42,445 nucleotides of DNA from a virus, in the IMG/VR virus record IMGVR_UViG_3300022226_000012, positions 1 through 42,445 of that record; one strand, written 5' to 3'. This document shows, piece by piece, positions 2,983-30,584 of the stretch; position 1 is the first letter of the stretch; the number at the start of each line of letters is the position of its first letter. Below the pieces are notes generated by a model. The model ran no database searches. It was not told the origin of the DNA and saw nothing but the letters and a program-made list of their open reading frames with translations. Both the position numbers and the translations under genes were made by a program.

Positions 2983-3113
2983 TGTTCACTAGATGGATTA
3001 ACAGGGTGGTAGATTTCATGATCAGATATCCTGAAGTAGAGATTCTAGTTCATACGATTTTGGTAATGGGGATGCTGCTATTGTTCATCACGATTGTGAA
3101 GGTGCTGTCCTGA
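2982..3113 (+). CDS. Small single-span membrane protein
   Basis: 43 aa. It starts on the TAATG junction with the methyltransferase and stops on a TGATG junction with queE. The arrangement strongly suggests a real gene. The N-terminus is basic (FTRWINRVVDF), and residues about 21-42 (ILVHTILVMGMLLLFITIVK) form one clear transmembrane helix. The function is unknown. Confidence 0.6.
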   Translation: MFTRWINRVVDFMIRYPEVEILVHTILVMGMLLLFITIVKVLS

Positions 3114-3853
3114 TGTTTGGCAACAACCCTATCCGCAAGCAAGATTTGACACCATCCAATTCCCTGCGAGTCCAGGAAGTATTTCCCACCATCCAAGGTG
3201 AAGGCCCCTTCCAGGGTGTCCCTGCGGTATTCGTTCGTTTATGGGGGTGCAATCTGAAATGCTTTTGGTGCGACACTGATTTTGAAAGTGGCACGTGGCA
3301 TCCCAGCGTTGATATGCTCGCCAAGCATATTGTCCTCGCCTTTGCTGAAATGGGGCATCAGTACGCTGCGCATGAACATGGTTTAGTCGTCATCACTGGC
3401 GGAGAACCCCTGCGACAAGACATAACTAAATTTCTTTATAAATGTCGTCAACATGGGTGGCGCGTCCAAATTGAAACAAATGGAACACTATGGATTGAGG
3501 GTTTGGAGACGTTTATCAAGGAGGGTCTCGTGACACTCGTTTGCTCACCCAAAACGGGCAGAATACATGACAAATTTTACTCATGGTGCTACCATTGGAA
3601 GTACATAATTGACGCTGATACGGCATCACCTGAAGACGGGCTGCCGATGGCATCCACTCAGGTAGAAAATAAGCCCATGCGTCTTGCACGACCCAACCGA
3701 GGCCCCAAAGACACCGTTTGGGTGCAGCCTATGGATATGGATCACGTGGACCCTAGTATAACCCGTTGGAATACCCGTTACGCTTGCGACATAGCCATGC
3801 GCTACGGCTATCGCTTATGTATCCAGCAGCACAAAATAGTGGGATTACCATAA
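3113..3853 (+). CDS. queE: 7-carboxy-7-deazaguanine synthase (radical SAM)
   Basis: 246 aa. QueE converts 6-carboxy-5,6,7,8-tetrahydropterin to 7-carboxy-7-deazaguanine with a 4Fe-4S cluster and SAM. The radical SAM motif C46-x3-C50-x2-C53 (GCNLKCFWCDTD) is intact. It is preceded by the typical QueE start VQEVFPTIQGEGPFQGVPAVF and followed by TGGEP at 95-99, which binds SAM. It overlaps its neighbours by single bases and sits next to queD, queC and folE, so the pathway assignment is firm. Confidence 0.95.
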   Translation: MFGNNPIRKQDLTPSNSLRVQEVFPTIQGEGPFQGVPAVFVRLWGCNLKCFWCDTDFESGTWHPSVDMLAKHIVLAFAEMGHQYAAHEHGLVVITGGEPLRQDITKFLYKCRQHGWRVQIETNGTLWIEGLETFIKEGLVTLVCSPKTGRIHDKFYSWCYHWKYIIDADTASPEDGLPMASTQVENKPMRLARPNRGPKDTVWVQPMDMDHVDPSITRWNTRYACDIAMRYGYRLCIQQHKIVGLP

Positions 3854-4137
3854 TGCCAGAATTTTATGGGATCGGTGGAAAAGAATATCCTAATTTTCAG
3901 GTAGCGTGGGATGAGTATTATTCATTTGCACATGGATCAGATCCGTTAGACGCAGAAACGTATCACGTAGAAAGGAAGGCTTTCTTTTCAGGAGCCATAT
4001 CCGCGATTAATGTACTGTCCGTCAGAATAAACGAGCTATCCGATAAATCTGTATCAGTTCAGCATCAGGTAGGAACAGCGATAATGTCAACCTTAAATGA
4101 AGCCATGCAATCAGCTTCTGAAGAATTTGGAAAATAA
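3853..4137 (+). CDS. Hypothetical protein between queE and queD
   Basis: 94 aa beginning on a TAATG junction with queE (MPEFYGIGGKEYPNFQVAWD). It is predicted soluble and mostly helical in the C-terminal half. Its last bases lie one nucleotide before the queD start. No motif is recognised, and its place inside the deazaguanine operon is the only clue to its role. Confidence 0.6.
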   Translation: MPEFYGIGGKEYPNFQVAWDEYYSFAHGSDPLDAETYHVERKAFFSGAISAINVLSVRINELSDKSVSVQHQVGTAIMSTLNEAMQSASEEFGK

Positions 4138-4138
4138 T

Positions 4139-4564
4139 ATGAGTGAAATCTACGCAACCAGGTATCACGACATTTCTTGTGGCCACCGAGTAGTTGGGCA
4201 TGAATCAAAATGCAGGTTTCTTCACGGTCATAATTATCGGATTACTTTCGTTATCCGCGGCAGAAACGGGCTTGATAATATCGGGAGGGTGATTGATTTT
4301 TCGGTAATAAAGTCCATACTATGTGAATGGTTGGAGGAGAATTGGGACCACAAATTTCTATTATGGGAATCTGACCCAATCTTGCCAGGTCTACGAGAAG
4401 TGGCGAATATCGGATTGAAAGCTGTACCTTTCAATCCAACAGCAGAAAACATGGGCCGATATCTTGTGCATGACATCGGTCCATCGCTACTTCCTAAGGA
4501 TGTTGTGCTAGTCAAAGTCGTTGTTGAAGAAACCAGAAAATGCTCAGCGGAGGTCACCTTGTGA
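4139..4564 (+). CDS. queD: 6-carboxy-5,6,7,8-tetrahydropterin synthase
   Basis: 141 aa. QueD turns dihydroneopterin triphosphate into CPH4, the second step towards preQ0. Zinc ligands H16, H29 and H31 are seen in SCGHRV and FLHGHNY, with the catalytic C25 just before HGH. WDHKFLL (69-75) and PTAENMGRYL (100-109) are the usual PTPS/QueD blocks. The start was placed at ATG 4139, giving the normal family length; a longer frame begins inside the upstream gene. It overlaps the queC start. Confidence 0.95.
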   Translation: MSEIYATRYHDISCGHRVVGHESKCRFLHGHNYRITFVIRGRNGLDNIGRVIDFSVIKSILCEWLEENWDHKFLLWESDPILPGLREVANIGLKAVPFNPTAENMGRYLVHDIGPSLLPKDVVLVKVVVEETRKCSAEVTL

Positions 4565-5265
4565 GTAAGAAAGCAGTAGTCGTATTGTCAGGCGGAATGG
4601 ATAGTTATACTATGATTCATTGCCTACACCAAGAAGGGTGGGAGTTGGCCGCATTGTCATTTAATTACGGCCAGCGACATAAAAAGGAACTGCGGTATGC
4701 TCAAGGCACTTGCAATGTCCGTGATATACCTCACACGATCGTTGACTTGCAGGTACTCAATCCATTGCTCCAGGGTAGTTCATTGACGAGCGATATCGAT
4801 GTGCCGGAAGGGCACTACAGCGAGGATACCATGAAAGCGACAGTGGTACCCAACCGCAATATGATAATGCTGTCGATCGCTGTCGGTTACGCGGTGTCGC
4901 TTGAATACGATCATGTCTATACCGCGGTCCACGCCGGCGACCATGCAGTGTACCCTGACTGCCGTGACGAGTTCATTAAAGCGATGACCGCGGTCACGAT
5001 GATATCGAATTACCATCCAGTCACTATCCAGGCACCCTTTATCAATATTGACAAGGGTGAGATTCTTCAGGAAGGTCGCCGGCACGGATTGAACGAAGAC
5101 GACTATATCCACGCTTGGACTTGCTACAAGGGCTTAGACAAGGCTTGCGGGAAATGTGGTGCCTGCGTGGAACGGCTCGAGGCCTTCGATTGGATGGGGT
5201 GGGTGGACCCACTTGATTATGAAGACCGTGAGTTTTACAAGGAGGCCATTATCAATGCCAAATGA
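4561..5265 (+). CDS. queC: 7-cyano-7-deazaguanine (preQ0) synthase
   Basis: 234 aa with the start placed at GTG 4561, 7 nt after GGAGG and overlapping the queD stop. An ATG at 4540 would add seven residues. QueC uses ATP and ammonia to convert CDG to preQ0. The PP-loop SGGMDS (10-15) is intact, and the zinc ribbon C188, C196, C199, C202 (TCYKG...CGKCGAC) is complete. It is not fused to a glutamine amidotransferase domain, unlike the phage Gat-QueC proteins linked to archaeosine-like DNA, so preQ0 is the expected product. Confidence 0.95.
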   Translation: MSKKAVVVLSGGMDSYTMIHCLHQEGWELAALSFNYGQRHKKELRYAQGTCNVRDIPHTIVDLQVLNPLLQGSSLTSDIDVPEGHYSEDTMKATVVPNRNMIMLSIAVGYAVSLEYDHVYTAVHAGDHAVYPDCRDEFIKAMTAVTMISNYHPVTIQAPFINIDKGEILQEGRRHGLNEDDYIHAWTCYKGLDKACGKCGACVERLEAFDWMGWVDPLDYEDREFYKEAIINAK

Positions 5266-5899
5266 TGACTGGGGCAACTCGTTTTTCAACGCGTTGGATA
5301 AAGAGCATGATGACTCCGCCGTGTCTGAAATTTATCCGGACTTCAACTTTGATTTAAAGAAGTCCTGCAACCATTTACTAAGAGCAGTGGAGGGAGAAGG
5401 TGCTCATCGGGAGGGTCTTTTAGACACACCTGCCCGTTTCGCGAGCGCGTGGAGGTACTGGACCAAAGGGTACGAAGAAGATCCTGCGTCCATTTTAAAG
5501 ACTTTTCAGGACGGAGCATCAAATTATGACGAAATGGTTCTGGTTCGTGACATACCTGTGTATAGCAAATGTGAGCATCACCTTGCTGATATTTTTGGGG
5601 TCGCCCATGTCGCGTATATCCCCTTTGGACGTATCGTTGGCCTGTCTAAACTTAGTCGTTTGGTTGACTGTTTCGCTCGGCGACTCCAGGTTCAAGAAAG
5701 ACTCACCACGCAGATAGCTGACTCTTTGGTAGAACACTTGCAACCACGGGGCGTGGCCGTGATGCTGCGATGTCGCCATCTCTGCATGGAGTCTCGTGGC
5801 ATTTGCCAGCAGGGCCACACAACTATAACCAGCGCACTGCGCGGCGCCATATTGGACGAGGCCAGCGCACGAGCGGAGTTTATGAGTTTGGTGACATGA
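5255..5899 (+). CDS. folE: GTP cyclohydrolase I
   Basis: 214 aa with ATG 5255 positioned 9 nt after AGGAGG and overlapping queC by 11 nt. FolE makes dihydroneopterin triphosphate from GTP, the entry step for deazaguanine synthesis. Zinc ligands C106, H109 and C177 lie in KCEHHL and RHLCMESRG. The ICQQGHTTITSALRG block completes the active-site signature. The length is normal for bacterial FolE-I. Its presence makes the phage independent of host supply of this precursor. Confidence 0.95.
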   Translation: MPNDDWGNSFFNALDKEHDDSAVSEIYPDFNFDLKKSCNHLLRAVEGEGAHREGLLDTPARFASAWRYWTKGYEEDPASILKTFQDGASNYDEMVLVRDIPVYSKCEHHLADIFGVAHVAYIPFGRIVGLSKLSRLVDCFARRLQVQERLTTQIADSLVEHLQPRGVAVMLRCRHLCMESRGICQQGHTTITSALRGAILDEASARAEFMSLVT

Positions 5900-6321
5900 G
5901 CTTTGATTGCATCTACTGTTTTGAAACAGTTCCGTCTTTCGTAAAGGTGGGCATGACTAGCTGTCGTCATTACAGTCAGTGGGTGCATAGGGTGAAATCG
6001 GTTCAAGGTTACTTTCCGAATGATTTATTTGCCAATGCTAAATGCTGGCTGATTGAAGGTCCTGTCACGATGTACTATGTTCATTCAGAAGTGGAAAAAA
6101 TCATCCACAAAGAGTTGTCCAAAAGATACGAAAGGGTACAGACAGAACTTTTCAAATGTACTACAGATGACGTTGAAGAAGTTATCAACGAACACGAATG
6201 GACGGGTGAATTTTTACTCAGATTTTATCCAAAAAATGAAAAATTTGAGAGACTAGTTGACGGGTATAAACGATACCCAGTTGGCTCATCTCAATGGCGG
6301 GAGGGGTTTAATGAACAGTAG
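5896..6321 (+). CDS. T5orf172/GIY-YIG-like domain protein
   Basis: 141 aa starting on an ATGA junction with folE. The arrangement DCIYCFE..., FVKVGMT, a run of basic residues, VEKIIHKEL and YERVQTELFKC is like the T5orf172/Mug113 branch of the GIY-YIG superfamily (KVGxT, an R helix, E...H..L, then E-x-F). The catalytic Arg cannot be assigned with certainty. Such domains occur as nucleases or DNA-associated proteins in phages. Its role inside the modification operon is unclear. Confidence 0.55.
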   Translation: MSFDCIYCFETVPSFVKVGMTSCRHYSQWVHRVKSVQGYFPNDLFANAKCWLIEGPVTMYYVHSEVEKIIHKELSKRYERVQTELFKCTTDDVEEVINEHEWTGEFLLRFYPKNEKFERLVDGYKRYPVGSSQWREGFNEQ

Positions 6322-7000
6322 AGAATCGATCGTAAAGATAGTCACTCAATACTTTGCGCCGATGACCAAAGAACCGTTTGAATTCCGCGGCAAGATATAC
6401 GAGCCGAAAACCCTGCGGGTGTCGCCGATGATATTTACTCGGCGAATGGGCTGCCCACCGATGTGCGGCGGTTGTTGTGCGAAGCTGTCGGTGGAATACA
6501 TCATGCCAGAGGTTAATAAAGAAGATGAGGTTCCATTTTTGAAAACTGATGGAACTGAGCCCCATTTCAAAATGCGTCATGTTGAGATCAATGGAGTGGG
6601 TAAACCAATCGTAAGTGATCTTCAGAAAGACAACAAAGATCACTTTTGCCATTACTTGAACCAGGCGGATGGTCGTTGTAACATCCACGGACGTCATCCG
6701 TTCTCCTGTGACTTTGAGTTACTTCGTTTCTCCATAATGAGCCGACCAGATCGCGCTAACCAGTTGAACCATCGTCCGTTTGGACGCGGCTGGGCCATGC
6801 TTACGGTGGACGGAACGCGAGGCGCCAAATGCACATGGGAAGACACCGATCGCATCAGCATCGCTGAACAGCAAGACATCGTTCGCAAGCTAGAAAGACT
6901 GAAGCAGTGGATGGAATACTGGCGCCTAGACCACAAGGTTGATCGAGTGATCGACTGGGTTGCAAGCGGCCCGCACAAAGAACCAATCTACATTGACTAG
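6311..7000 (+). CDS. YkgJ-like cysteine-cluster protein (possible Fe-S or zinc binding)
   Basis: 229 aa; the start ATG 6311 overlaps the previous gene and follows GGGAGGGGTTTA. Cysteines are grouped as C-x3-C-x2-CC (GCPPMCGGCC, residues about 48-57), followed by FCHYL, RCNIHGRHPFSC and a later Cys. This pattern is typical of the YkgJ family of zinc/iron-chelating proteins. Enzymatic activity is not established for the family. It lies between folE and queF, so it may assist a metal-dependent step of base synthesis; that is inference. Confidence 0.65.
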   Translation: MNSRESIVKIVTQYFAPMTKEPFEFRGKIYEPKTLRVSPMIFTRRMGCPPMCGGCCAKLSVEYIMPEVNKEDEVPFLKTDGTEPHFKMRHVEINGVGKPIVSDLQKDNKDHFCHYLNQADGRCNIHGRHPFSCDFELLRFSIMSRPDRANQLNHRPFGRGWAMLTVDGTRGAKCTWEDTDRISIAEQQDIVRKLERLKQWMEYWRLDHKVDRVIDWVASGPHKEPIYID

Positions 7001-7009
7001 GAGAATAAC

Positions 7010-7489
7010 ATGACAGATACAAGCAACCTGAAAGCGTTGGGTGAGAACTCAAAGGTCACGCAATATGACAGCCCGAGCATCGATATACTAGAAAGGTTCG
7101 AGGCACCGACCTGGAGTGATCTCGGTAATAAACCTGCGGGCGCCCAACAGGTTTCAATAAAGGTTCCTGAGTTCACGAGCCTTTGTCCGTTAACCGGCCA
7201 ACCCGACTTCGCAACGATTGTCATTGAATATTCACCGAAGCAATGGTGCGTCGAGAGCAAGAGCCTGAAGCTTTATATGTTCGCATTTCGCAACCACGGA
7301 GAATTTCATGAGGCGTGTGTCAATAAAATAACGCATGATTTTATTGAGCTGTTGGATCCATGGTGGATACAAGTTCAAGGACAATTCACCCCTCGCGGTG
7401 GCATTCCTTTCTGGCCAACGCAGCGATGGGAGAATCCGATACTTCGTGAACCGTCGAGTGGTATAATGACTCCCGGAGGCCTGCGGTAG
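7010..7489 (+). CDS. queF: NADPH-dependent preQ0 reductase (unimodular QueF type)
   Basis: 159 aa after a good TAGGAG site. QueF reduces the nitrile of preQ0 to the aminomethyl of preQ1. The nucleophile C59 is in [12 protein letters not shown] with the proton donor D66. The NADPH motif ESKSLK (82-87) and the substrate-binding E98 in RNHGEFHE are present, and the conserved RGGIPFWP block follows. The size fits the short (B. subtilis-like) class. With folE, queD, queE and queC this completes the route from GTP to preQ1. Confidence 0.93.
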
Positions 7490-7653
7490 TGGAAGAAGAC
7501 TACGCACAAATCCAAGCTGATTTCAATAGCGCGATAGATTTCGCTATTGAAACAGATGACCCAAGGTCGTTCTTGATTGCCTGGCGCGAAGGTGATTGGG
7601 ATGCTCTGCGAGAAGAGTGGCCTGAATTTGTTTTACCATCCATTGCGACATGA
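7489..7653 (+). CDS. Small acidic hypothetical protein before dpdA
   Basis: 54 aa from a GTG (7489) that overlaps the queF stop, about 9 nt after GGAGG. It ends on an ATGA junction with the dpdA-like gene. The sequence is acidic and rich in Trp and Asp/Glu (SFLIAWREGDWDALREEWPE). Tight coupling on both sides supports it as a real gene. No family is recognised; a small partner of QueF or DpdA is possible. Confidence 0.55.
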   Translation: MEEDYAQIQADFNSAIDFAIETDDPRSFLIAWREGDWDALREEWPEFVLPSIAT

Positions 7654-8576
7654 AAGTATTTTTCAGTGGAATCGGAAAAGGTTCTGTTGAGTCCGATGAA
7701 CGGCTCGGCTCACCACGGTACCGATTATTTTCATGTCACGGTAATTATTTCAATTACGCTGTAAATACGATTCCACTTTGCGCGACCATTGACAATGAAT
7801 TTGAGGTGATGTTAGACAGCGGCGCGTTCACCGCGTGGACGAAAGGAGAAGAGGTGAAATTAGATGAGCTCAAAAGAACTTACGGAGCAATCCTTGAAAA
7901 ATATGGCGATCTTGGCCAGCAATTTTGGCTCATTAACCTTGACAAAATCCCGGGTGCTCCAGGAAGAACCCCAAGCACTGAGGAGATTGATGAGGCAATT
8001 AGAATTTCAGATGCGAATTACGAACTCCTTGTCAAGGAATTCGGAGAAATTGTCCTCCCTGTTTTCCACCAAGGAGAATCGTCAGCACGACTTTTAGAAG
8101 TACAAGATATGGGAACCTACATCAACGTCAGCCCGCGGAATGATGTAGGTGAAAGAATGCGCGTCAGGTGGGCCAAAGACGTGCATAGACAACTCAAGAA
8201 AGAAACGCGGACCCATGGTCTTGCGGCCACAGGTCTTCCAATGATGCAAGATACGCCGTGGCACTCAGTGGACTCAGCTTCGTGGATTATGGTTGCGTCC
8301 TATGGGCATATTTGGTGGCCGCGTACCATGACGATTATATCTATCAGCGACGACAGCCCTAATAAACATCTTGCGGATAAGCATTATGTCAATTTAAGTA
8401 AACCTGAGCAGGAACAGTTCACAGCCTACGCTGAAGAATTTGGTATGACAATTGAAGAGTTACGAACGGACTTTGTTCATCGAGCCATATGGAATAGAAT
8501 GGTACAAAGTGCCATTTATCGTGCGGTGCCTGACGAAGTCGTCAAGCCAGAGCAAGAAAGTTTATTTGATTTATGA
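7650..8576 (+). CDS. dpdA: DpdA-like DNA 7-deazaguanine transglycosylase
   Basis: 308 aa. DpdA belongs to the tRNA-guanine transglycosylase superfamily and exchanges guanine in DNA for a 7-deazaguanine base. Family-like blocks are DSGAFTAW (56-63), NLDKIPG (96-102), PVFHQGES (137-144), HGLAATG (189-195) and SVDSASWI (206-213); the Asp residues in the first, second and last are candidate active-site residues. It carries no tRNA-recognition PUA domain. It overlaps both neighbours by 4 nt. The assignment rests on these motifs plus the adjacent que genes and is strong, though the exact base inserted (preQ0 or preQ1) is inference. Confidence 0.85.
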   Translation: MKVFFSGIGKGSVESDERLGSPRYRLFSCHGNYFNYAVNTIPLCATIDNEFEVMLDSGAFTAWTKGEEVKLDELKRTYGAILEKYGDLGQQFWLINLDKIPGAPGRTPSTEEIDEAIRISDANYELLVKEFGEIVLPVFHQGESSARLLEVQDMGTYINVSPRNDVGERMRVRWAKDVHRQLKKETRTHGLAATGLPMMQDTPWHSVDSASWIMVASYGHIWWPRTMTIISISDDSPNKHLADKHYVNLSKPEQEQFTAYAEEFGMTIEELRTDFVHRAIWNRMVQSAIYRAVPDEVVKPEQESLFDL

Positions 8577-22512: not shown

Positions 22513-22616
22513 AAAAAATATTCAAAAAAAATATTCAAATGATTCAAATAATTGAACTCAAAAAATGATTTCAGTTTTGAGGAAAATATTCAAAAAAATA
22601 TTCAAATGATTCAAAT
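22511..22616 (+). repeat. AT-rich direct repeats (AATATTCAAA family), left copy
   Basis: Two near-identical blocks of about 35-39 bp (22511-22549 and 22582-22616) each carry two AAATATTCAAA elements followed by TGATTCAAAT. The surrounding DNA to about 22665 is extremely AT-rich and has no gene. A second cluster of the same element is at 27837-27922. Candidates are a replication origin (iterons) or binding sites for an AT-preferring DNA protein. Confidence 0.7.
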
Positions 22617-22915: not shown

Positions 22916-23017
22916 ATTTCTTGCGGCCCTGGTTTTTTCTGAGAGAAAGAAGCGGGCGGCGGCGCAACCAGGCTGCTGAAAATTTCTTGCGGCCCTGGTT
23001 TTTTCTGAGAGAAAGAA
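22916..23017 (+). repeat. 36-bp exact direct repeat, two copies (TTGCGGCC family)
   Basis: The 36-bp sequence at 22916-22951 recurs exactly at 22982-23017; its core is TTGCGGCCCTGGTTTTTTCT. The second copy ends on the base before the ATG of the next gene, so it forms that gene's leader. Two more copies of the core lie at 28243-28334. No known element matches. The position before an HTH regulator gene suggests operators (inference). Confidence 0.85.
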
Positions 23018-23245
23018 ATGCGTAGACTGAAACAGATTGCAGTGAATGAAACGAGCCTTTTCGCGGTCGCTGAAGATGGAACCTTCTGGCGAGCTGAATT
23101 GTGGACTGAGGGTGACCCACAATGGCGAAGAGTGAAATGCCCACCTGAAGGAGACGACCATCCCGAATTAACAATTGAAGAAATCGGGGAAAGGTTGAAG
23201 AAAAAGAGCCGAGGAATGATAATTGGAAGAGGTAAGAAAGAATGA
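23018..23245 (+). CDS. Hypothetical protein
   Basis: 75 aa whose start codon directly follows the second 36-bp repeat, so translation starts from GAGAAAGAA inside the repeat. QIAVNETSLFAVAEDGTFWRAELW reads like a beta-propeller-type blade, and the C-terminus is basic. It overlaps the regulator gene by 4 nt. Confidence 0.6.
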   Translation: MRRLKQIAVNETSLFAVAEDGTFWRAELWTEGDPQWRRVKCPPEGDDHPELTIEEIGERLKKKSRGMIIGRGKKE

Positions 23246-23622
23246 AATTAAAGCCACATGAAATATTCACCATTTGGAGAAAACGAAATAATTTTTCTCA
23301 GGAAGAACTGGCTGAAAGGTTTAAAGTCAGCCAAGGTTACATTTCACATATGGAGATGGGAATAAGGCCGATACCGAAACGAGTACGAGACGCGATGCCG
23401 AAGAAGATGCGGATCAAAGAGGGCGACGAATTTCAGGTGCGTGTTCGTCGTCAAGGTATCAATATGCTGCTCGCAGTGAAGATGTTCAAAGCGAGTCACC
23501 AAAAGCTGCTTCAGTACATGCGCAATGAAATTCCAATTCCGAAACAAATCTGGGAAAAACTCGAGCACGACGAAAAGAAGTTTGCGGAATACAAGGAGAA
23601 GAAAAAGGCGGAAACCGCGTAA
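23242..23622 (+). CDS. XRE-type HTH regulator with apparent second HTH
   Basis: 126 aa, overlapping the previous gene by 4 nt. Residues 8-47 (IFTIWRKRNNFSQEELAERF, KVSQGYISHMEMG) are a Cro/CI-type HTH. Residues 68-103 (GINMLLAVKMFKASHQKLLQ, then MRNEIPIPK) parallel the first in order (FKxS..., PIPK), which suggests an internal duplication. It is likely a DNA-binding repressor or activator. The repeats just upstream, and again near the far end of the leftward block, are candidate targets. Confidence 0.75.
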   Translation: MKLKPHEIFTIWRKRNNFSQEELAERFKVSQGYISHMEMGIRPIPKRVRDAMPKKMRIKEGDEFQVRVRRQGINMLLAVKMFKASHQKLLQYMRNEIPIPKQIWEKLEHDEKKFAEYKEKKKAETA

Positions 23623-23867
23623 CAGTGCGGTTTTGCGGCGCATTTCTAAGCGTGTCTACGGCTATCTAAGCCACTTTCATGTAATACAGTACTTAGGGTG
23701 GGTGTATTATTTGGACGCGAGAGGTAGCCAATGTCGCGGTCCTGTACTCTATGGCTGTCTAAGCGTGGGTAATATGCGGGTGGCTAGTGTATTGGGTATT
23801 ATATGAACGTGGCGTGTCGCGCAAATCTCGCGGTCCATTTTAGTGGTGAAAGCAACCAGCGACCCAC
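23623..23867. other. Non-coding convergent gap
   Basis: About 245 bp between the rightward regulator gene and the terminator of the leftward block. It contains loosely repeated TATCTAAGCC / TGTCTAAGCG and TGTATTAT-type elements but no convincing gene, tRNA or terminator for the rightward transcript. Confidence 0.4.
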
Positions 23868-23892
23868 AAAAAAGCCCCGCCGGAGCGGGGCC
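23868..23892 (-). terminator. Rho-independent terminator of the leftward block
   Basis: On the minus strand, GCCCCGC and GCGGGGC pair around a TCCG loop and are followed by TTTTTT. It lies just after the stop of the first winged-helix-like gene. Confidence 0.9.
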
Positions 23893-23900
23893 ATGAAGCT

Positions 23901-24290
23901 TTACTGAGCGATGCGGTACTTGTTGTCGTCACCGCGGGCAATTTTCAGAACCGGACCCTTCGCCCACTTGGGGTTCTTCAGATCGACGATTGCTGTTTCA
24001 ATCGTGTTAGGCTTCACCGTGGGGCACTTCTCGATGAGCTCGTCCATCGTGAGCGCGACCTTTGCGTTCTTGAAAACGCTGCGAAGAACTTCCTTGGTTG
24101 AAGGACCGCGCTTCTTTTTGCGACGCTCTTCTTCAACTTCCAGGTCACCGACTTCCATCATCACATCAGCCAGTTCAGCGATGAGTTTGTCTTTCGGCAT
24201 TTTGCGTTTCTTGACGCTGGTACCGGCGTAGTTGTTCAGCTCTTCGTTGAGCTGGGCGACGGTCATGTTTTCAAGGTCTTCGAGTTTCAT
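23901..24290 (-). CDS. SAP/HeH-like plus winged-helix-like protein
   Basis: 129 aa with ATG 24290, 7 nt after AGAAAGGAG. The N-terminus (MTVAQLNEELNNY...KKRKMPKDKLIAEL, 9-40) looks like a SAP/HeH helix-extended-helix DNA-binding motif. A charged linker (EEERRKKKRG) follows. Residues 66-129 (VLRSVF..., TMDELIEKC, KPNTIETAIVDLKNPKWA, KYRIAQ) form a winged-helix-like domain, paralogous to the protein at 29348-29590. It has its own promoter, leader hairpin and terminator, so it is probably an abundant early DNA-binding protein. Confidence 0.7.
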   Translation of the reverse strand: MKLEDLENMTVAQLNEELNNYAGTSVKKRKMPKDKLIAELADVMMEVGDLEVEEERRKKKRGPSTKEVLRSVFKNAKVALTMDELIEKCPTVKPNTIETAIVDLKNPKWAKGPVLKIARGDDNKYRIAQ

Positions 24291-24317
24291 ATTCATACTC
24301 CTTTCTGGGTTTAAATG

Positions 24318-24376
24318 ATGACGCGCAATTGCGACGTCATGTATTAAATGATAGTTCCATTTTATCTGAAATGCAA
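24318..24376 (-). promoter_or_regulatory. Promoter and leader hairpin of the SAP/winged-helix gene
   Basis: On the minus strand TTGCAT (24371-24376), 17-bp spacer, TATCAT (24348-24353), then TTAATAC. The leader contains ATGACG / CGTCAT flanking the palindrome CGCAATTGCG (24318-24340), a stable hairpin with one bulge, before AGAAAGGAG. Confidence 0.75.
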
Positions 24377-24457
24377 GTATTCTTTTAAATTCATTTTGAG
24401 AAAAGTTTTTCAATTTTGCGGGCATAATACCAGCGACGGTACAGGTTGCGGATTCGA

Positions 24458-25132
24458 TTAATCATGTTCAACCTCCGCAGGATCAAGCTCACCTTCGTAA
24501 CCGACGCCGATTCGACGACGCGCTGCCCTCCAGGCAGAATCTTCGGCGTCCCATTCACTGTACTTGGTATTCAACCAACGAACCTTACCGTTCTCACGAA
24601 AGTAAATTCGATATTCACCGTGCGTTCCTTTCTCAAGATGGTGGTACCAAAATATGATATCGTCGAGTCGGCTGATGCGCTCGACTTTCGGCCGGTACTT
24701 GTTCTCTTCCATGAGGTCCTTTTCTTCTTTCGCAATGTGGTAGACTTGCTTAACACGGTGGCGCCGTCCCTTCGTCCAGTCAACAATTTCATTTCCATCG
24801 AAGGCGCAAAGGTGAGCATTAACAAGAACGAAGAACTTTTTGCCTTTGGGCAATTCTTTTTCGAGAGAGTTGACCGTCTTGCCTTCAAAATGGCCAGTCA
24901 CTGTGACGTGATGATGACCGAGATCATTCACCGCAGGCAACCACAGCCCCATGTTCGCGCCCTTGCCCTTCCGTCTACCTCGAGCTTTCATGACGGCATG
25001 AGCTTCGTCATACGTGGAGTCAGTGACGAGTGCGAGTGCCTTCACAGTGCAGTCATTGCCTTCGCCTAACTCGTTGCTTCTGGTACGGAGGTGCGAGTGT
25101 TTTTCTTTGGATGTTAAATTTTCTAACGCCAT
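24458..25132 (-). CDS. Papain-fold cysteine-peptidase-like protein
   Basis: 224 aa after AGAAAGGAGCAAACGAA. GEGNDCTVKALALVTDSTYDEAHAVMK (residues 23-49) with C28 at a helix start, and FFVLVNAHLCAFDGNEIVDW (100-119) with H107, follow the Cys-then-His order of phage papain/C39-like fold proteins. The C-terminal 100 residues form an extra, basic and Trp-rich region. Proteolysis is possible but not shown; such proteins may cut a host or phage target early in infection. Confidence 0.6.
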   Translation of the reverse strand: MALENLTSKEKHSHLRTRSNELGEGNDCTVKALALVTDSTYDEAHAVMKARGRRKGKGANMGLWLPAVNDLGHHHVTVTGHFEGKTVNSLEKELPKGKKFFVLVNAHLCAFDGNEIVDWTKGRRHRVKQVYHIAKEEKDLMEENKYRPKVERISRLDDIIFWYHHLEKGTHGEYRIYFRENGKVRWLNTKYSEWDAEDSAWRAARRRIGVGYEGELDPAEVEHD

Positions 25133-25172
25133 TTCGTTTGCTCCTTTCTAATGTACTGTGCTACTGTATTAA

Positions 25173-25200
25173 ATGATAGTATACTGTGAGTTTTTTGCAA
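25173..25200 (-). promoter_or_regulatory. Promoter of the peptidase-like gene
   Basis: On the minus strand TTGCAA (25195-25200), 16-bp spacer, TATCAT (25173-25178), followed by TTAATACAG and an AGAAAGGAG site. It matches the other leftward promoters in spacing and downstream sequence. Confidence 0.7.
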
Positions 25201-25236
25201 CCTGAAAATTGCATTGATTTAAAATGAATTGTCAAT

Positions 25237-25260
25237 AAAAAAGAGCGGCCGAAGCCGCTC
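25237..25260 (-). terminator. Rho-independent terminator with TTCG loop
   Basis: On the minus strand GAGCGGC-TTCG-GCCGCTC is followed by TTTTTT. It closes the operon that starts at the 26.2-kb promoter. Confidence 0.92.
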
Positions 25261-25315
25261 AATCCGTCACTGCCGATTACTGATAAGCAGGTCAGGAATA
25301 CGCGAAAGGAGCAAC

Positions 25316-25633
25316 CTACGCGTTTGGTGGATTGTTGCAGACGAGTTTCACTGCCCGCCAATTGAACGAATCTCTGAAGCGCTGGTGGTCTTCATCTGTC
25401 CATTGCTTGAAAGGCTTGTGCTCCAAATCCGAAATTGATTCATGGAAATTAAATCGTGTGGAATATTCAGTATCGTCGTCCTCGGGGATACCAAAATCCG
25501 TGATAGTGATGTCCTCGATTTCTAGGCCCAGGATGTCACTGACGATTTCAATTGCGTGACGTCTTGCGAAGTCATGCTTGAGTAGACCTTCATCGCTGAG
25601 TGCTTTTACGATATTTTCTGCCATAGTGCTCAT
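25316..25633 (-). CDS. Acidic hypothetical protein
   Basis: 105 aa with ATG 25633, 7 nt after AGGAG; a longer frame lacks a better site. It is acidic (TITDFGIPEDDDTEYS) with a helical N-terminus, last gene of its operon. No family is recognised; small acidic proteins like this are common among phage early host-takeover genes. Confidence 0.6.
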   Translation of the reverse strand: MSTMAENIVKALSDEGLLKHDFARRHAIEIVSDILGLEIEDITITDFGIPEDDDTEYSTRFNFHESISDLEHKPFKQWTDEDHQRFRDSFNWRAVKLVCNNPPNA

Positions 25634-25643
25634 TTCAATTCTC

Positions 25644-25946
25644 CTAAAATTGGTTGCCGGTTTCGTATTCTTCATATTTGAATACGATCGTCATGTACGA
25701 GAGCTTTTCATCGTAGCTCAACGCGTCCCAGTACTCCAAACACTCCTCATCCATCTCACCATACACGCGAACATGATCGATGCAAAGATCAAAAAGGTCG
25801 TCGCGTGTGATTGAATCACCAGGTAGGTCGAAAGCGATGGTCTGGTAGGTGTATTCAAATGCTTGGATCAGCTTTTCGTCGATGGGAGCCGGGTTAATGT
25901 TCGGGTCCATCACGCTGACGCCTGGTGGAAGGTTAAAGTTGCTCAT
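25644..25946 (-). CDS. Acidic hypothetical protein
   Basis: 100 aa after GGAGGTCGCAGA, overlapping the previous gene by 4 nt. Strongly acidic in the second half (GEMDEECLEYWDALSYDEKL). No recognisable motif. Confidence 0.6.
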   Translation of the reverse strand: MSNFNLPPGVSVMDPNINPAPIDEKLIQAFEYTYQTIAFDLPGDSITRDDLFDLCIDHVRVYGEMDEECLEYWDALSYDEKLSYMTIVFKYEEYETGNQF

Positions 25947-26173
25947 TCTGCGACCTCCATTTCTTCTTTCTCGATGTTCTCGAGCAATACCTCGAAAGTG
26001 TTGTCGTAGCGATTGACACTGTGACCGAAATCAAATACTCGGTAAGCGTGGGCCCAGCTCATTTCGTTCGGGAAGTGCTCACGGGTGATAGATTCAGCTC
26101 TTTCACCCAGCTCTTGCAGCTCTTGCATGATTTCGGATAGCGCATTGTAGGCTTCATGTTGTTCGTGATTCAT
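25943..26173 (-). CDS. Small acidic helical protein
   Basis: 76 aa, first gene after the 26.2-kb promoter, with AGAAAGGAGCAACCAAA before the ATG. It is mostly helical (YNALSEIMQELQELGERAES) with an acidic C-terminus (ENIEKEEMEV). The function is unknown. Confidence 0.6.
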   Translation of the reverse strand: MNHEQHEAYNALSEIMQELQELGERAESITREHFPNEMSWAHAYRVFDFGHSVNRYDNTFEVLLENIEKEEMEVAE

Positions 26174-26192
26174 TTTGGTTGCTCCTTTCTAA

Positions 26193-26244
26193 ACAGCTTT
26201 ATTGCTGTATTAAATGAGTATAGCAAATGGGGTCGCTTCTGCAA
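26193..26244 (-). promoter_or_regulatory. Promoter and ACAGC/GCTGT leader hairpin (26.2 kb)
   Basis: On the minus strand TTGCAG (26239-26244), 16-bp spacer, TATACT (26217-26222), then TTTAATACAGC. The 5' leader ACAGC-aataaa-GCTGT (26193-26208) forms a small hairpin. The leader is nearly identical to that at 27.75 kb. Confidence 0.72.
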
Positions 26245-26253
26245 CCTATGAAT

Positions 26254-26598
26254 TTACCATGAACAATATTCTTTTATGCGGGCCGGATACAGGTGACCCT
26301 GTTTATTGCCGTAAACATCTTCGATCCAACGGATGCCGAAGGTTATGCGCGGGATTGCGAAATCGCCGACGTCTTCACTGTGGACCGCAAAGAAAACGTC
26401 GTGCCGCCCACCTGTTCCTTCAACCGGATACCCGTTTTTCATATCCGGTGCTGTTTCTACGGTTTCAAGGAACTGTATGCGACACTTGAAATTCTCAAGC
26501 ATGAACCCCACGAAGGCTTCCACCTCGGTTTCTTTGACTTCCGTCCCGGGCCAGACGCAGACCTGGGTGAAATTGTCATTGAGTTTTACGTTTTTCAT
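26254..26598 (-). CDS. Hypothetical protein
   Basis: 114 aa after TTGGAGAACCAAA. The middle contains GRHDVFFAVHSEDVGDFAIPRI and the end IRWIEDVYGNKQGHLYPARI, an alpha/beta pattern. It is the last gene of the 27.8-kb operon. Its stop lies only ten bases from the next promoter. No family is recognised. Confidence 0.6.
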   Translation of the reverse strand: MKNVKLNDNFTQVCVWPGTEVKETEVEAFVGFMLENFKCRIQFLETVETAPDMKNGYPVEGTGGRHDVFFAVHSEDVGDFAIPRITFGIRWIEDVYGNKQGHLYPARIKEYCSW

Positions 26599-26611
26599 TT
26601 TGGTTCTCCAA

Positions 26612-26671
26612 TTAAAAGAAAATAATCAAAATCATAATTATGACGAATGGTCCGATGTAGCGCGGCCGCAT
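26612..26671 (-). CDS. Tiny hydrophobic peptide
   Basis: 19 aa (MRPRYIGPFVIIMILIIFF) after GGGAGAATGAT. It consists of a basic start and one hydrophobic helix. It fills the gap between two genes of the operon exactly. Only the ribosome site and placement support it. Confidence 0.4.
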   Translation of the reverse strand: MRPRYIGPFVIIMILIIFF

Positions 26672-26672
26672 A

Positions 26673-26954
26673 TCATTCTCCCAGTTTAATTGTATAGACT
26701 TCATCGAACGAGCCCGGTTCATCGCTCGCTTTTAAGACGACCTCGGCAGTCGTTTCATCTACCCACGTCCAGATGAAGTCGTACGGGGTTTGGCCATTGT
26801 CAAGTGCTCGGCCGTAGAAACTAGCCCACGCATCCAGAAGGATTCGGTTGGTGTTAGTGTAGGGCCCGCATTGAAAACCTTCGGTCCAGATGGGGCCGTC
26901 GTCATCTTCATAAGGGAATTGGGTTTCGAAAATGTGAATCGTGCGAGTAGTCAT
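26673..26954 (-). CDS. Acidic hypothetical protein
   Basis: 93 aa, acidic and aromatic (ETQFPYEDDDGPIWTEGFQC, FIWTWVDETTAEVVL). It overlaps the upstream gene by one base. The pattern of strands resembles a small beta-rich fold; no family is recognised. Confidence 0.6.
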   Translation of the reverse strand: MTTRTIHIFETQFPYEDDDGPIWTEGFQCGPYTNTNRILLDAWASFYGRALDNGQTPYDFIWTWVDETTAEVVLKASDEPGSFDEVYTIKLGE

Positions 26955-27280
26955 TAGTCTTCCTCGTCTACGAATTTAAGTTTGGCTTCGCTTAAGGTTT
27001 CAGCAATCCCCGCAGTGTAATCTTCATCTCCGATAAACTGCGCTTCTCCTTTCAACAAAGCCTCAAGATCGAAATTATTGTACTTGTCGATCGTGCCGGC
27101 GAGCACTCTTCCCAGCGTCCAACCTTCAACGTTCATTAAATATTCATCGAGCGCATCTTCATCATCTCTGAGATCCTGGACCGCTTGCAATTGGTCACGG
27201 GTGACGGTGAGGTTGAACTTGCTCGTGTCAAATCGGTCATATGTCTTACCGAAGACGTGATACTTCGCTACTTTACTCAT
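26954..27280 (-). CDS. Acidic hypothetical protein
   Basis: 108 aa with AGAAAGGAGCAAATAGAA upstream. It is acidic throughout (VQDLRDDEDALDEYLMNVEG) and ends VDEED. No recognisable motif. It is the third gene of the 27.8-kb operon. Confidence 0.6.
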   Translation of the reverse strand: MSKVAKYHVFGKTYDRFDTSKFNLTVTRDQLQAVQDLRDDEDALDEYLMNVEGWTLGRVLAGTIDKYNNFDLEALLKGEAQFIGDEDYTAGIAETLSEAKLKFVDEED

Positions 27281-27316
27281 TTCTATTTGCTCCTTTCTGT
27301 TGATAAAAAATATTCA

Positions 27317-27511
27317 CTACAGGTTGAGTGAATTCATGTACGCTCTCCATTCTTCACTATGAATGAGAGGCATTTGATTGTCATTCAAGAAGAGCTCGAG
27401 GAGTATAAGAAGATCAATCTCGAGCTTTGATCCTGGGCCGTTGGTTTCGCAACCGAGCCACCCATCTTCATGGAACTCGGCGGCTTCTTTCAAATGATCA
27501 AAGTTTGGCAT
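27317..27511 (-). CDS. Small acidic hypothetical protein
   Basis: 64 aa after AGAAAGGAGCAACCAA. Helical and acidic, with a Leu-rich middle (LEIDLLILLELFLNDNQMPL). No family is recognised. Confidence 0.6.
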   Translation of the reverse strand: MPNFDHLKEAAEFHEDGWLGCETNGPGSKLEIDLLILLELFLNDNQMPLIHSEEWRAYMNSLNL

Positions 27512-27525
27512 TTGGTTGCTCCTTT

Positions 27526-27729
27526 CTAATAAATGATTATGATGGACGGGTCTTCTGCATCAGTGCGATCTTCGCTGGTGACATAATTAATGTACTTTGC
27601 GAGGCGCTGAGCGTAAGTCAGTTCAGGCTCAAAATCTTTGCGTGGGTCGAGCTGCGGGCAACACATTCCGTCAGCAGCGATTTGCTCTATGAGCTCTTTG
27701 GTGAAGGTGACTTGTTTTTGCTTGTGCAT
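27526..27729 (-). CDS. Small hypothetical protein, first of the operon
   Basis: 67 aa, ATG preceded by AGAAAGGAGCAACCAA and the conserved leader. Contains CC (DGMCCPQLDPRKD) and a helical segment (YAQRLAKYINYV). No family is recognised. Confidence 0.6.
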   Translation of the reverse strand: MHKQKQVTFTKELIEQIAADGMCCPQLDPRKDFEPELTYAQRLAKYINYVTSEDRTDAEDPSIIIIY

Positions 27730-27747
27730 TTGGTTGCTCCTTTCTAG

Positions 27748-27799
27748 ACAGCTTTATTGCTGTATTAAACGATTATAGTTACTCGTATGTCTTCTGCAA
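27748..27799 (-). promoter_or_regulatory. Promoter and ACAGC/GCTGT leader hairpin (27.8 kb)
   Basis: On the minus strand TTGCAG (27794-27799), 16-bp spacer, TATAAT (27772-27777), then GTTTAATACAGC. ACAGC and GCTGT (27748-27763) form a small hairpin before AGAAAGGAG. It drives the run of small genes down to 26254. Confidence 0.78.
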
Positions 27800-27836
27800 C
27801 CAATGAATTTATATGAATTTAAAATCAATTTTCACC

Positions 27837-27922
27837 AAAATATTCAAAGAAAATATTCAAATTCTGAAATGAAAAAACCATTTTCGGTTTGAAGAAAATA
27901 TTCAAAAAAAATATTCAAATTC
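27837..27922 (+). repeat. AT-rich direct repeats (AATATTCAAA family), right copy
   Basis: AAAATATTCAAA elements occur as two pairs (27837-27863 and about 27893-27922), spaced like those at 22511-22616. They lie in gene-free AT-rich DNA just upstream of the 27.8-kb promoter. The two clusters flank the main leftward gene block. Confidence 0.7.
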
Positions 27923-28242
27923 ATCATTTTTATTTTTGAATTCTTTTGAGTTTTGATTTGAAAACGTCTAGGATTTGATTTCATATTTATTTGGGATTGG
28001 TGAAGGAATCTGTCGGGGTTTCGTTTGGAATTGTGTCAGAAGGCTGGTGAGGTTGCGAGCCTCGCTGTCACTCACGCGAAGTAGGTTGATTTGGACGTGA
28101 GTATAGGTTTGTAGGTGAAAGCCTCTTATAGCGATTCATTGCTTGTGGCATGAAAGGATGAGGTTCGCGAGCAAAGGACGACTGGAAGTCGTCAGGTTTC
28201 TCTCTCACAAATCGTCTTCATTCATTTTTAAGGCGACTCATT

Positions 28243-28334
28243 TTCTTGCGGCACGGCTTTTTTCTGAGTGGCTGAAATCACCTGCGGCTCCAAAAGTTCT
28301 TGCGGCCCTGGTTTTTTCTGAGTGGCTGAAATCA
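28243..28334 (+). repeat. TTGCGGCC-family repeat, two further copies
   Basis: Two 38-bp copies (28243-28280 and 28297-28334) share TTCTTGCGGC, TTTTTTCTGAG and GGCTGAAATCA; the first differs by a few bases in the middle. The first 26 bp of the second copy match the 36-bp repeats at 22.9 kb. After the shared core the tails differ: TGGCTGAAATCA here and AGAAAGAA there. Confidence 0.8.
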
Positions 28335-28373
28335 GTCGCGGTTGATCGTCTGAAATGTAATCATTTTGAGCGA

Positions 28374-28449
28374 CTCTGATCAGTCAAACTCTGGTCATTC
28401 ACGATGATCTGTCTGCGATCGGCCGATCGGCTCTGATCAGTCAAACTCT
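28374..28449 (+). repeat. 19-bp direct repeat around a 14-bp palindrome
   Basis: CTCTGATCAGTCAAACTCT occurs at 28374-28392 and again at 28431-28449. Between them lies the perfect palindrome CGATCGGCCGATCG (28416-28429). The repeat itself contains the palindrome TGATCA. This looks like a protein-binding array. Confidence 0.75.
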
Positions 28450-28604
28450 ATATCGTCACAGGTCATGCGATGATGTGTCTGGCACTGTGAGCCACTGAAA
28501 TGGAGGAGTGGTACATGGGTGTGGGTATTAAGTGAAAGCGGGAGAGAGCCACAGAGCTTTGGTGAAAGCCAGTGCTGGTCCCATATGTGGGCTCATATGT
28601 GATC

Positions 28605-28632
28605 CAAAATGAAGCCCCGGCGAACCGGGGCT
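28605..28632 (-). terminator. Stem-loop terminator with TTCG loop
   Basis: On the minus strand AGCCCCGG-TTCG-CCGGGGCT is followed by TCATTTT. The T-tract is imperfect but the stem is strong. It closes the operon that starts at the 29.0-kb promoter. Confidence 0.75.
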
Positions 28633-28641
28633 GGGGTGAGG

Positions 28642-28860
28642 CTATAGCTTTGCAGCAAACCGCATGGCTGAAGCTAATGAGTTGCTGGAGTACACTGACT
28701 GGATATACGCTTCATCCGTGTCCCAGTTGTGCAGCGTTTGGACAATGTAAAGCCCGCCCTCGCAGCACTGTATGTGAACGTTGGGGTTGGATTTCAGCTC
28801 ATAGCTGTCATCCTCGAGCTCCGGAAATTGCGCCGGAATATGCGTGAATAAGTCTCCCAT
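28642..28860 (-). CDS. Hypothetical protein
   Basis: 72 aa. ATG 28860 is chosen because GGGAG lies 5 nt before it; ATG 28872 is an alternative that adds four residues. It begins MGDLFTHIPAQFPELEDDSY and contains HIQCCEGGLYIVQTLHNWDT. No family is recognised. Confidence 0.55.
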   Translation of the reverse strand: MGDLFTHIPAQFPELEDDSYELKSNPNVHIQCCEGGLYIVQTLHNWDTDEAYIQSVYSSNSLASAMRFAAKL

Positions 28861-28873
28861 TTTTACTCCCATT

Positions 28874-28978
28874 TTAGTGCATGGTGGTCAGCTGAGGGAT
28901 GAGCTCCGCAGCTTTTACAGCGAGTTGAAAACCGGTGTAGGCAGTGTAGGCGATGACTGTGATGACGAAGTATTTCAT
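28874..28978 (-). CDS. Very small protein with hydrophobic N-terminus
   Basis: 34 aa (starts MKYFVITVIAYTAYTGFQLA) after AGAAAGGAGCAAGAA. It is the first gene downstream of a consensus promoter. The N-terminal 20 residues could be a membrane segment or signal. The function is unknown. Confidence 0.6.
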   Translation of the reverse strand: MKYFVITVIAYTAYTGFQLAVKAAELIPQLTTMH

Positions 28979-29015
28979 TTCTTGCTCCTTTCTGTTTTAC
29001 TGTTTAAGTATAATG

Positions 29016-29043
29016 ATTATAGTCCATCTGTCATATAATACAA
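29016..29043 (-). promoter_or_regulatory. Sigma70-like promoter (29.0 kb)
   Basis: On the minus strand TTGTAT (29038-29043), 16-bp spacer, TATAAT (29016-29021). A perfect -10 hexamer and the same 16-bp spacing as the neighbouring promoters. Confidence 0.8.
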
Positions 29044-29308
29044 CCATTCATTTGGCTATTTTACAAATGATGACAATCGCGAAATATCATCTGACGAAGA
29101 TCTACGGGGGCACAGATTGCGGGAGATTGTATTATCTCGTGCCACCCAATGCACTTGTATGGGTAATATTTGAGTGGCGAGAACGTGCCAATAAGAGCGG
29201 GAGAAGTATTGTTTGAGTTTTGAAGGGCGTGAGTACGCTAGGAGAGCAAGACTGAAATCAAGCAAGATTTGTGCCGATTTTGGGAGACTGAAAAAAGATA
29301 TTTGAGGC

Positions 29309-29333
29309 AAAAAAAAAGCGCCCCGAAGGGCGC
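29309..29333 (-). terminator. Rho-independent terminator with TTCG loop
   Basis: On the minus strand GCGCCC-TTCG-GGGCGC is followed by nine T. It closes the single-gene unit of the second winged-helix-like protein. Confidence 0.93.
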
Positions 29334-29347
29334 TAGAAGGGTGGTGA

Positions 29348-29590
29348 TTACTGTGCAATAACGTACTGGTTTTTCTCATTTTTCTCGAGCACGAGCACTT
29401 CGCCGACAGCCCACTTGGGGTTTTTCAGGTCGATGATAGCGGTTTCGACAGTGTTGGGCTTTACTTGACGAACAAGGGCAGCATTACACTTGGTGATGAG
29501 TTGCTCGAGCGTGAAGGCAGCTTTTTTGTTGCTGTAAATTGCACGAATGACAGTTTTGGTAGAACGCTTTTTTTCGGTTTGCTTAGGCAT
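29348..29590 (-). CDS. Winged-helix-like protein (short paralog)
   Basis: 80 aa. VIRAIYSNKKAAFTLEQLIT, then KPNTVETAIIDLKNPKWAVGE and YVIAQ align throughout with the C-terminal domain of the protein at 23901-24290, which additionally has an N-terminal SAP-like part. Its N-terminus is basic (MPKQTEKKRSTK). It has its own promoter, leader hairpin and terminator, so it is probably the first leftward gene expressed. A DNA-binding early protein is likely. Confidence 0.72.
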   Translation of the reverse strand: MPKQTEKKRSTKTVIRAIYSNKKAAFTLEQLITKCNAALVRQVKPNTVETAIIDLKNPKWAVGEVLVLEKNEKNQYVIAQ

Positions 29591-29674: not shown

Positions 29675-29990
29675 GGAATCATTTAAATCATTTAGGGTAA
29701 ATAACGCACTTTTTTGAGGTGGTGAAATTGGTGATATCGGCATGGTTCTTGCTATTAGATGAAACGGTAAAAGTATGCAAGAAACGCGCCGATTTGGGAT
29801 TGGTGATGGTGCAGTGATGAAGGTAGGTGGCGGTTTCACTTTTGCTGATCTTTCTTAAAATTTCACTTTCATTTCATCGTCAGTCTACCTTTACCTTCAG
29901 TCGCCACCCCGTCTGCTGCACTGCAACAACCACGGACCTCAATCAGTTGCAAATAGCAACTGAACGATGCTGCACTGCACAAGAGCACAT
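29675..29990. other. Non-coding divergent region, first part
   Basis: No convincing gene on either strand. It contains TGCTGCACTGCA twice (29914-29925; again at 29968-29979), and between them AGTTGC-aaata-GCAACT (29945-29961), a small hairpin. It lies between the leftward early operons and the packaging genes. Confidence 0.5.
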
Positions 29991-30229
29991 GACATCTGAA
30001 GACGGTGACATCTGAAGACGACATGATAGACGATGACATCTGAAGACAATGACACAGAGTAAGACGACACAGAAGGGAGGGGCATCACTCATCTATCTGA
30101 TGACGATTGTACAGAGTGTGATGACACAGATGACTGAGCACTGACGCTGACATATGAAGATGACTACACAGAAGGTGAAGACAAATCACTGAAGGTGAAG
30201 GCTGACATATGAAGACGACTACGCAGAAG
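29991..30229 (+). repeat. Degenerate short repeats upstream of the terminase genes
   Basis: GACATCTGAAGAC occurs at 29991-30003, 30007-30019 and 30035-30047. A 29-bp unit (GCTGACATATGAAGA then GACTAC.CAGAAG) occurs at 30146-30174 and 30201-30229 with two differences. Many GATGACA/GACGACAC variants lie between. There is no coding frame. A packaging (pac/cos) or replication role is possible from its place. Confidence 0.65.
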
Positions 30230-30519
30230 TGAAGACAGACAGGCGGACCCGAGTTTTGGTTCAGGGGTGAAGGTGGGGCGAATTTGACAAAGAAGCGTTG
30301 CCTACGTGTACAGGCAAAACGAGCAGTGATGGGGTGCAACTATACTATAGCAAAATCCACCTGAAACCGCAAGATTTCCCGCACCCTCAGCCCATTAAAA
30401 TCCATCCAAGAATCCACCATTTTTACCACCTTTCAAAACGCCATGATCAACCGCCATTTCATCATAGATCATCGCCTGATCTGCGTCGCCCATAAATAAA
30501 CTGTTTTTGAGTTGATTCC

Positions 30520-30547
30520 TTGAATCATACAATACAACTCATATATT
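30520..30547 (+). promoter_or_regulatory. Candidate promoter of the packaging operon
   Basis: TTGAAT (30520-30525), 16-bp spacer, TATATT (30542-30547). The region overlaps an inverted repeat GAGTTG...CAACTC (about 30509-30540) that might be an operator. Confidence 0.45.
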
Positions 30548-30584
30548 TCCAGTTTACAGTTTACAACACTATTATCAATTGCTT

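Follow-up and report, generated by a model that had tools for sequence, protein, structure and literature searches.

Paired AT-rich iterons and core repeats as a duplicated, fixed-geometry module, best read as a nucleoprotein site, in a virus fragment

Tandem iterons and AT-rich DNA are the elements of which the origin of phage lambda and those of iteron plasmids are built. In the Bacillus phage SPP1 there are two similarly organised origins, each with direct repeats and an AT-rich unwinding element, one of them located in a gene and the other intergenic (PMC6316719). Replication of SPP1 is unidirectional from oriL, and the G38P protein bound at oriR may stall the fork (PMC3485210). Repeated sites are also known in L5-type mycobacteriophages, whose stoperators are asymmetric short intergenic sites and whose HTH repressor has two DNA-binding halves (PMC9283540).

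The window studied here is the whole of a 42,445-base virus fragment (IMG/VR record IMGVR_UViG_3300022226_000012), in which profile scans recognise genes for DNA polymerase A and a clamp, for the 7-deazaguanine pathway, and for terminase, portal and capsid. An earlier note on this DNA had described a repeat family consisting of two exact 36-bp copies and two related 38-bp copies, and both the copies and their extents are right. However, this is only the right half of a module of about 500 bp, which comprises two iteron pairs, a fixed spacer of about 340 bp and two cores, all in one orientation; the iteron pairs, AT-rich and located at 22515-22606 and 27837-27919, had been missed. The loose observation of repeats thus becomes that of a conserved cis-acting module, well delimited and of a geometry that can be tested, in an early region of a phage lineage that is without match among annotated phages.

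Among the known systems, the closest architecture is that of SPP1 oriL/oriR, the sites of gp38/G38P. Here, too, two distant sites of the same organisation carry direct repeats and AT-rich DNA, and one is in coding DNA while the other is in a long intergenic region. However, the modules are 5.3 kb apart instead of 12-13 kb, show no sequence match to SPP1, contain two repeat classes with a fixed spacing of about 405 bp, and are accompanied by no gp38-like initiator or gp40-like helicase recognised in these fragments. With the L5-type stoperators they share asymmetric short sites in gaps and a nearby HTH protein possibly having two DNA-binding halves, but there are four sites in this 42-kb fragment as against more than 20 genome-wide, the right pair is oriented as the left one although leftward genes surround it, and a fixed distance links the sites to AT-rich iterons. 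The lambda origin and iteron plasmids likewise combine tandem iterons with AT-rich DNA, except that the AT-rich DNA here consists of the iterons themselves, which occur solely as pairs stepped by 13 bp and are accompanied by a remote second class of site. The kind of phage DNA-site module is known, whereas its sequence family and arrangement are new. The features are collected in Table 1.

Table 1. Features of the two modules and their neighbourhood in the window
Feature	Position	Strand	Remark
Left module iteron pair 1	22515..22539	+	AAAATATTCAAA x2, 13-bp step; within most AT-rich stretch of record
Left module iteron pair 2	22583..22606	+	direct-repeat pair
Left spacer ORF, 80 aa	22668..22910	+	49% identity in G001
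Left module core site 1	22916..22951	+	exact 36-bp copy, ATTTCTTGCGGCCCTGGTTTTTTCTGAGAGAAAGAA
Left module core site 2	22982..23017	+	exact 36-bp copy, ATTTCTTGCGGCCCTGGTTTTTTCTGAGAGAAAGAA; abuts ATG at 23018
75-aa protein, function not assigned	23018..23245	+	45% identical in G001
HTH_3 (XRE-type) DNA-binding protein, 126 aa; candidate site binder	23242..23622	+	60% identical in G001
Leftward block of small genes, between modules	23901..27729	-	ORF list and profile scan
Right module iteron pair 1	27837..27861	+	second most AT-rich stretch of record
Right module iteron pair 2	27895..27919	+	direct-repeat pair
Right module spacer	27990..28242		noncoding; no detectable similarity to left spacer
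Right module core site 1	28243..28280	+	38-bp copy, TTCTTGCGG..TTTTTTCTGAGTGGCTGAAATCA
Right module core site 2	28297..28334	+	38-bp copy, TTCTTGCGG..TTTTTTCTGAGTGGCTGAAATCA

The core, TTGCGGCCCTGGTTTTTTCT, is found exactly at 22921, 22987 and 28300 and with three mismatches at 28246, and the two right 38-bp copies are identical at 35 of 38 positions. With up to three mismatches allowed, these are the only four matches in the 42 kb, all on the plus strand, compared with none in 100 dinucleotide shuffles. Ten copies from the window and two relatives, G001 and G002, were aligned and gave the consensus TTGCGGCYC-N3-YTTTTTCTGAG-N5-GAAAT, of which TGCGGC, the C two positions further and GAA do not vary (10/10). 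After GCGGC, all six copies of the relatives have T and three of the four in the window have C, on both sides. When a sequence-only profile is made of the ten copies, they score 36-44 bits by construction and everything else 27.2 bits at most, while a degenerate pattern has 11 other matches, all single, of which two (contigs L040 and L044) are evident terminators with the loop TTGC and the remainder look like chance. G002 also holds a partial core-like copy on a leftward gene junction (L006 577-615; 22 bits at 585-615), where G001 has an ordinary ribosome-binding leader. A TTTC-N9-GAAA dyad within the core was considered and rejected, as it fits about 8 of the 10 copies, breaks in g1_R1 and g2_R1, and makes no clean palindrome.

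Of the IMG/VR relatives obtained via portal search, two carry the element. G001 (IMGVR_UViG_3300027872_000016) has both core pairs at orthologous places (L029 8111 and 8178, 14709 and 14774), and G002 (IMGVR_UViG_3300037247_001617) has the right pair, likewise at the orthologous place (L006 1379 and 1445), its contig beginning within the leftward block and so showing the right side only. The more distant portal relatives (G003-G005 and others) are without the sites. The core has no match in 50,697 annotated phage records, the region has none in annotated phages or plasmids, whether by DNA or by protein, and viral contigs scanned for iterons, cores and proteins revealed no distant homologues beyond G001 and G002. 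With no Rfam match at the repeats either, the family deserves to be called novel, as had been proposed, and it is conserved in the two relatives with no stray copies elsewhere in the window. Since the neighbouring proteins of the window and G001 are only 45-69% identical, the surroundings have diverged while the short sites stayed.

The core pairs do flank the leftward block, but to say that they bracket it, as the earlier note did, is loose, in that the left pair is separated from the block by two rightward genes and leftward genes continue beyond the right pair (28642-29590). Direct repeats around a block of small genes, with 26 exact bases common to cores 5.3 kb apart, might be thought of as recombination or packaging sites by which the enclosed genes are exchanged, duplicated or deleted. 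We consider this hardly probable, as no recombinase was found among the scanned proteins, no relative was found that lacks the block and has one module, the left and right modules remain distinct across the phages, and terS is 2.3 kb beyond the right module.

Each core pair is preceded on its left, in the same orientation, by two AT-rich direct-repeat pairs of the form AAAATATTCAAA-N-AAAATATTCAAA, in 13-bp steps. Ranked by AT content in 120-bp stretches, the two iteron clusters of the window come first and second in the record, with 84% and 82% against 73% for the third; in G001 the left cluster comes first and the right one fourth. Across the phages left iterons resemble left ones and right iterons resemble right ones, so that the module seems to have been duplicated before the phages diverged.

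Table 2. Distances (bp) between repeat starts in five modules from three related contigs
Module	Iteron spacing	Iteron2 to core1	Core spacing	Iteron1 to core1	Iteron2 to core2
Window left	68	338	66	406	404
Window right	58	351	54	409	405
G001 left	69	339	67	408	406
G001 right	67	339	65	406	404
G002 right	67	339	66	406	405

Regarding the distances (Table 2), iteron 1 and core 1 are 406-409 bp apart and iteron 2 and core 2 are 404-406 bp apart in each of the five modules. In the right module of the window the iteron and core spacings are both about one helical turn shorter, yet both long distances are kept, a compensation with a probability of ~0.035 under a crude independent-indel model. Alignments of left with right spacers score at or only slightly above shuffled sequences, and that of the right spacers of the window and G001 falls among the shuffled scores; when words at common offsets were sought, only the iterons, TTTTGA just after them, and the cores emerged. 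One copy of the module is inside a rightward operon and the other in a long noncoding gap. The fixed geometry, which comes from three related contigs, is the strongest evidence for a single function at the DNA level. A rigid, duplicated module in the same orientation is best read as a nucleoprotein site, and most likely the modules are putative protein-docking sites for starting DNA copying or for controlling early genes. One can go further and take each iteron pair as matched one-to-one with the core about 405 bp off, in two interleaved units duplicated as a whole around the small-gene block, which would make an initiation or looping site of a new kind, one that includes a distance ruler; such a device we regard as rather improbable.

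The T tract in the core follows a GC-rich stretch and one copy adjoins a start codon, from which it might be supposed that the core works at the RNA level in rightward transcripts, be it as leader, as terminator or for processing. Some copies can indeed form a hairpin in front of the T tract (w_L2, -15.8 kcal/mol), and a true terminator of similar sequence is present in the unrelated contig L040. However, no consensus pairs are predicted, the fold z values of -0.5 and -0.8 are unremarkable, the conserved GAAAT sits past the T tract, and the right pair, located in noncoding DNA, points against the genes around it. An action in RNA, which also leaves the fixed iteron distance unexplained, thus seems very unlikely. 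The earlier note had taken one copy as the leader of a gene before an HTH regulator; left copy 2 does abut the ATG of the gene at 23018-23245, after which the HTH gene follows, but a leader role is incidental because the equivalent copy in G001 is some 15 bp further from the ATG and the right pair is in noncoding DNA. The intrinsic terminator was rejected, the hairpin before the T tract being absent in w_L1 and w_R1 and overall not above shuffles, and so was the sigma-70 promoter, as no promoter-like site (-35/-10 hexamers at 16-18 bp) coincides with any core. Rfam covariance models have a single sub-threshold match, which is elsewhere, at 30.1 kb.

By analogy with SPP1 oriL/oriR, the modules may be a pair of replication-origin-like sites. 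A phage protein would bind the iterons and cores and fold each module into a defined nucleoprotein complex, the AT-rich iteron stretch would be the part that opens, and one module would fire while the other serves as a second origin or a fork barrier. From conserved repeats, a fixed geometry, a high AT content and the absence of RNA, terminator and promoter signals we infer protein binding, strand opening and replication at the modules; what is more, the spacers are unrelated and coding on one side only, yet the distances are constant. On the other hand, the right iterons of G001 are only its fourth most AT-rich stretch, and the geometry comes from only three related contigs. Profile scans of the record and its relatives, all of them fragments, recognised no initiator, helicase loader or DnaB-type helicase. 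A DnaA-dependent origin was rejected, as there are no DnaA boxes at the modules, and so was a bidirectional origin judged by GC skew, which has no reversal at either module; this is compatible with unidirectional replication, without lending it positive support. The tandem repeats that immediately precede terS compete as a candidate origin. Because no initiator or helicase was recognised in the fragment and this other candidate exists, we hold the interpretation as an origin pair tentatively, at somewhat less than even chances. If it is right, the two-origin layout of SPP1 would extend to an unrelated phage with 7-deazaguanine-pathway genes.

The main rival concerns the HTH_3 protein (residues encoded at 23242-23622; Pfam PF01381, E 1.3e-7), which might bind cores or iterons at both ends as an operator set and regulate both the leftward block and the rightward operon to which its gene belongs, perhaps through a loop of the ~5.3 kb between the two ends. 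In both phages whose left side is covered, this gene, 60% conserved, follows the left cores at a distance of about 0.2 kb, the right module is just upstream of the first leftward promoter-like site (~27.79 kb, located by eye), and the base after GCGGC goes with the phage on both sides, C in most copies of the window and T in those of the relatives, as expected of one binder or of gene conversion. The C-terminal half of the protein aligns weakly to the N-terminal half (hhalign E 5e-4, probability only 32%), and as with the L5-type repressors it could be a two-headed binder of an asymmetric site; this is possible and no more, because the likeness of the halves is weak and the structure model is of moderate confidence (pLDDT 73), with no strong fold match. 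Against genome contigs the protein gave only short HTH matches. An operator set has to face, however, that the right cores are about 450 bp from the leftward promoter and overlap no promoter-like site, that the left cores are downstream of the first gene of the operon, and that ordinary operators need no rigid 405-bp spacing between iteron and core. We therefore think it possible but doubtful; it would point to a likely early-gene switch, and the origin and operator readings can both hold.

Several minor observations were made along the way. The noncoding stretch before terS, a candidate packaging or origin region, has tandem repeats differing from lineage to lineage (window 29700-30560; L029 16607-16823; L006 3062-3194; L009 7544-7663), and in L009 it also holds a perfect DnaA box (TTATCCACA, minus strand). 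The right noncoding gap (window 27990-28605; L029 14480-15235; L006 1150-1930) has positive GC skew and is strongly strand-asymmetric, TGAAA occurring 8-11 times on the plus strand and 0-2 times on the minus, and TGCGGC 3-8 times on the plus strand and never on the minus. In the window, the genes at 3113-8576 are QueE-, QueD-, QueC- and GTP cyclohydrolase-like together with a tRNA-guanine transglycosylase-like one, and they suggest that the phage DNA carries a 7-deazaguanine modification. Window bases 1-119 recur without a difference inside G003/G005-type contigs (L008 203-321, L032 16276-16394) that are otherwise about 70% alike; either an overlap made in assembly or a segment common to both is the probable cause. 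Between leftward genes there are single iteron-like half sites (AAAATAWTCAAA or close to it), always in plus orientation (window 26619 and 27305; L029 10745, 12102 and 12782; L006 392). Finally, a GGGTATTAAATGA-like element recurs close to leftward-gene promoters and, beside leftward terminators, in noncoding gaps, at 23796, 24341, 25166, 26207 and 28525 in the window, and also in G001 and G002, its positions in the relatives being 5625, 5714 and 6440 on L005 and 1726, 1815 and 2541 on L006.
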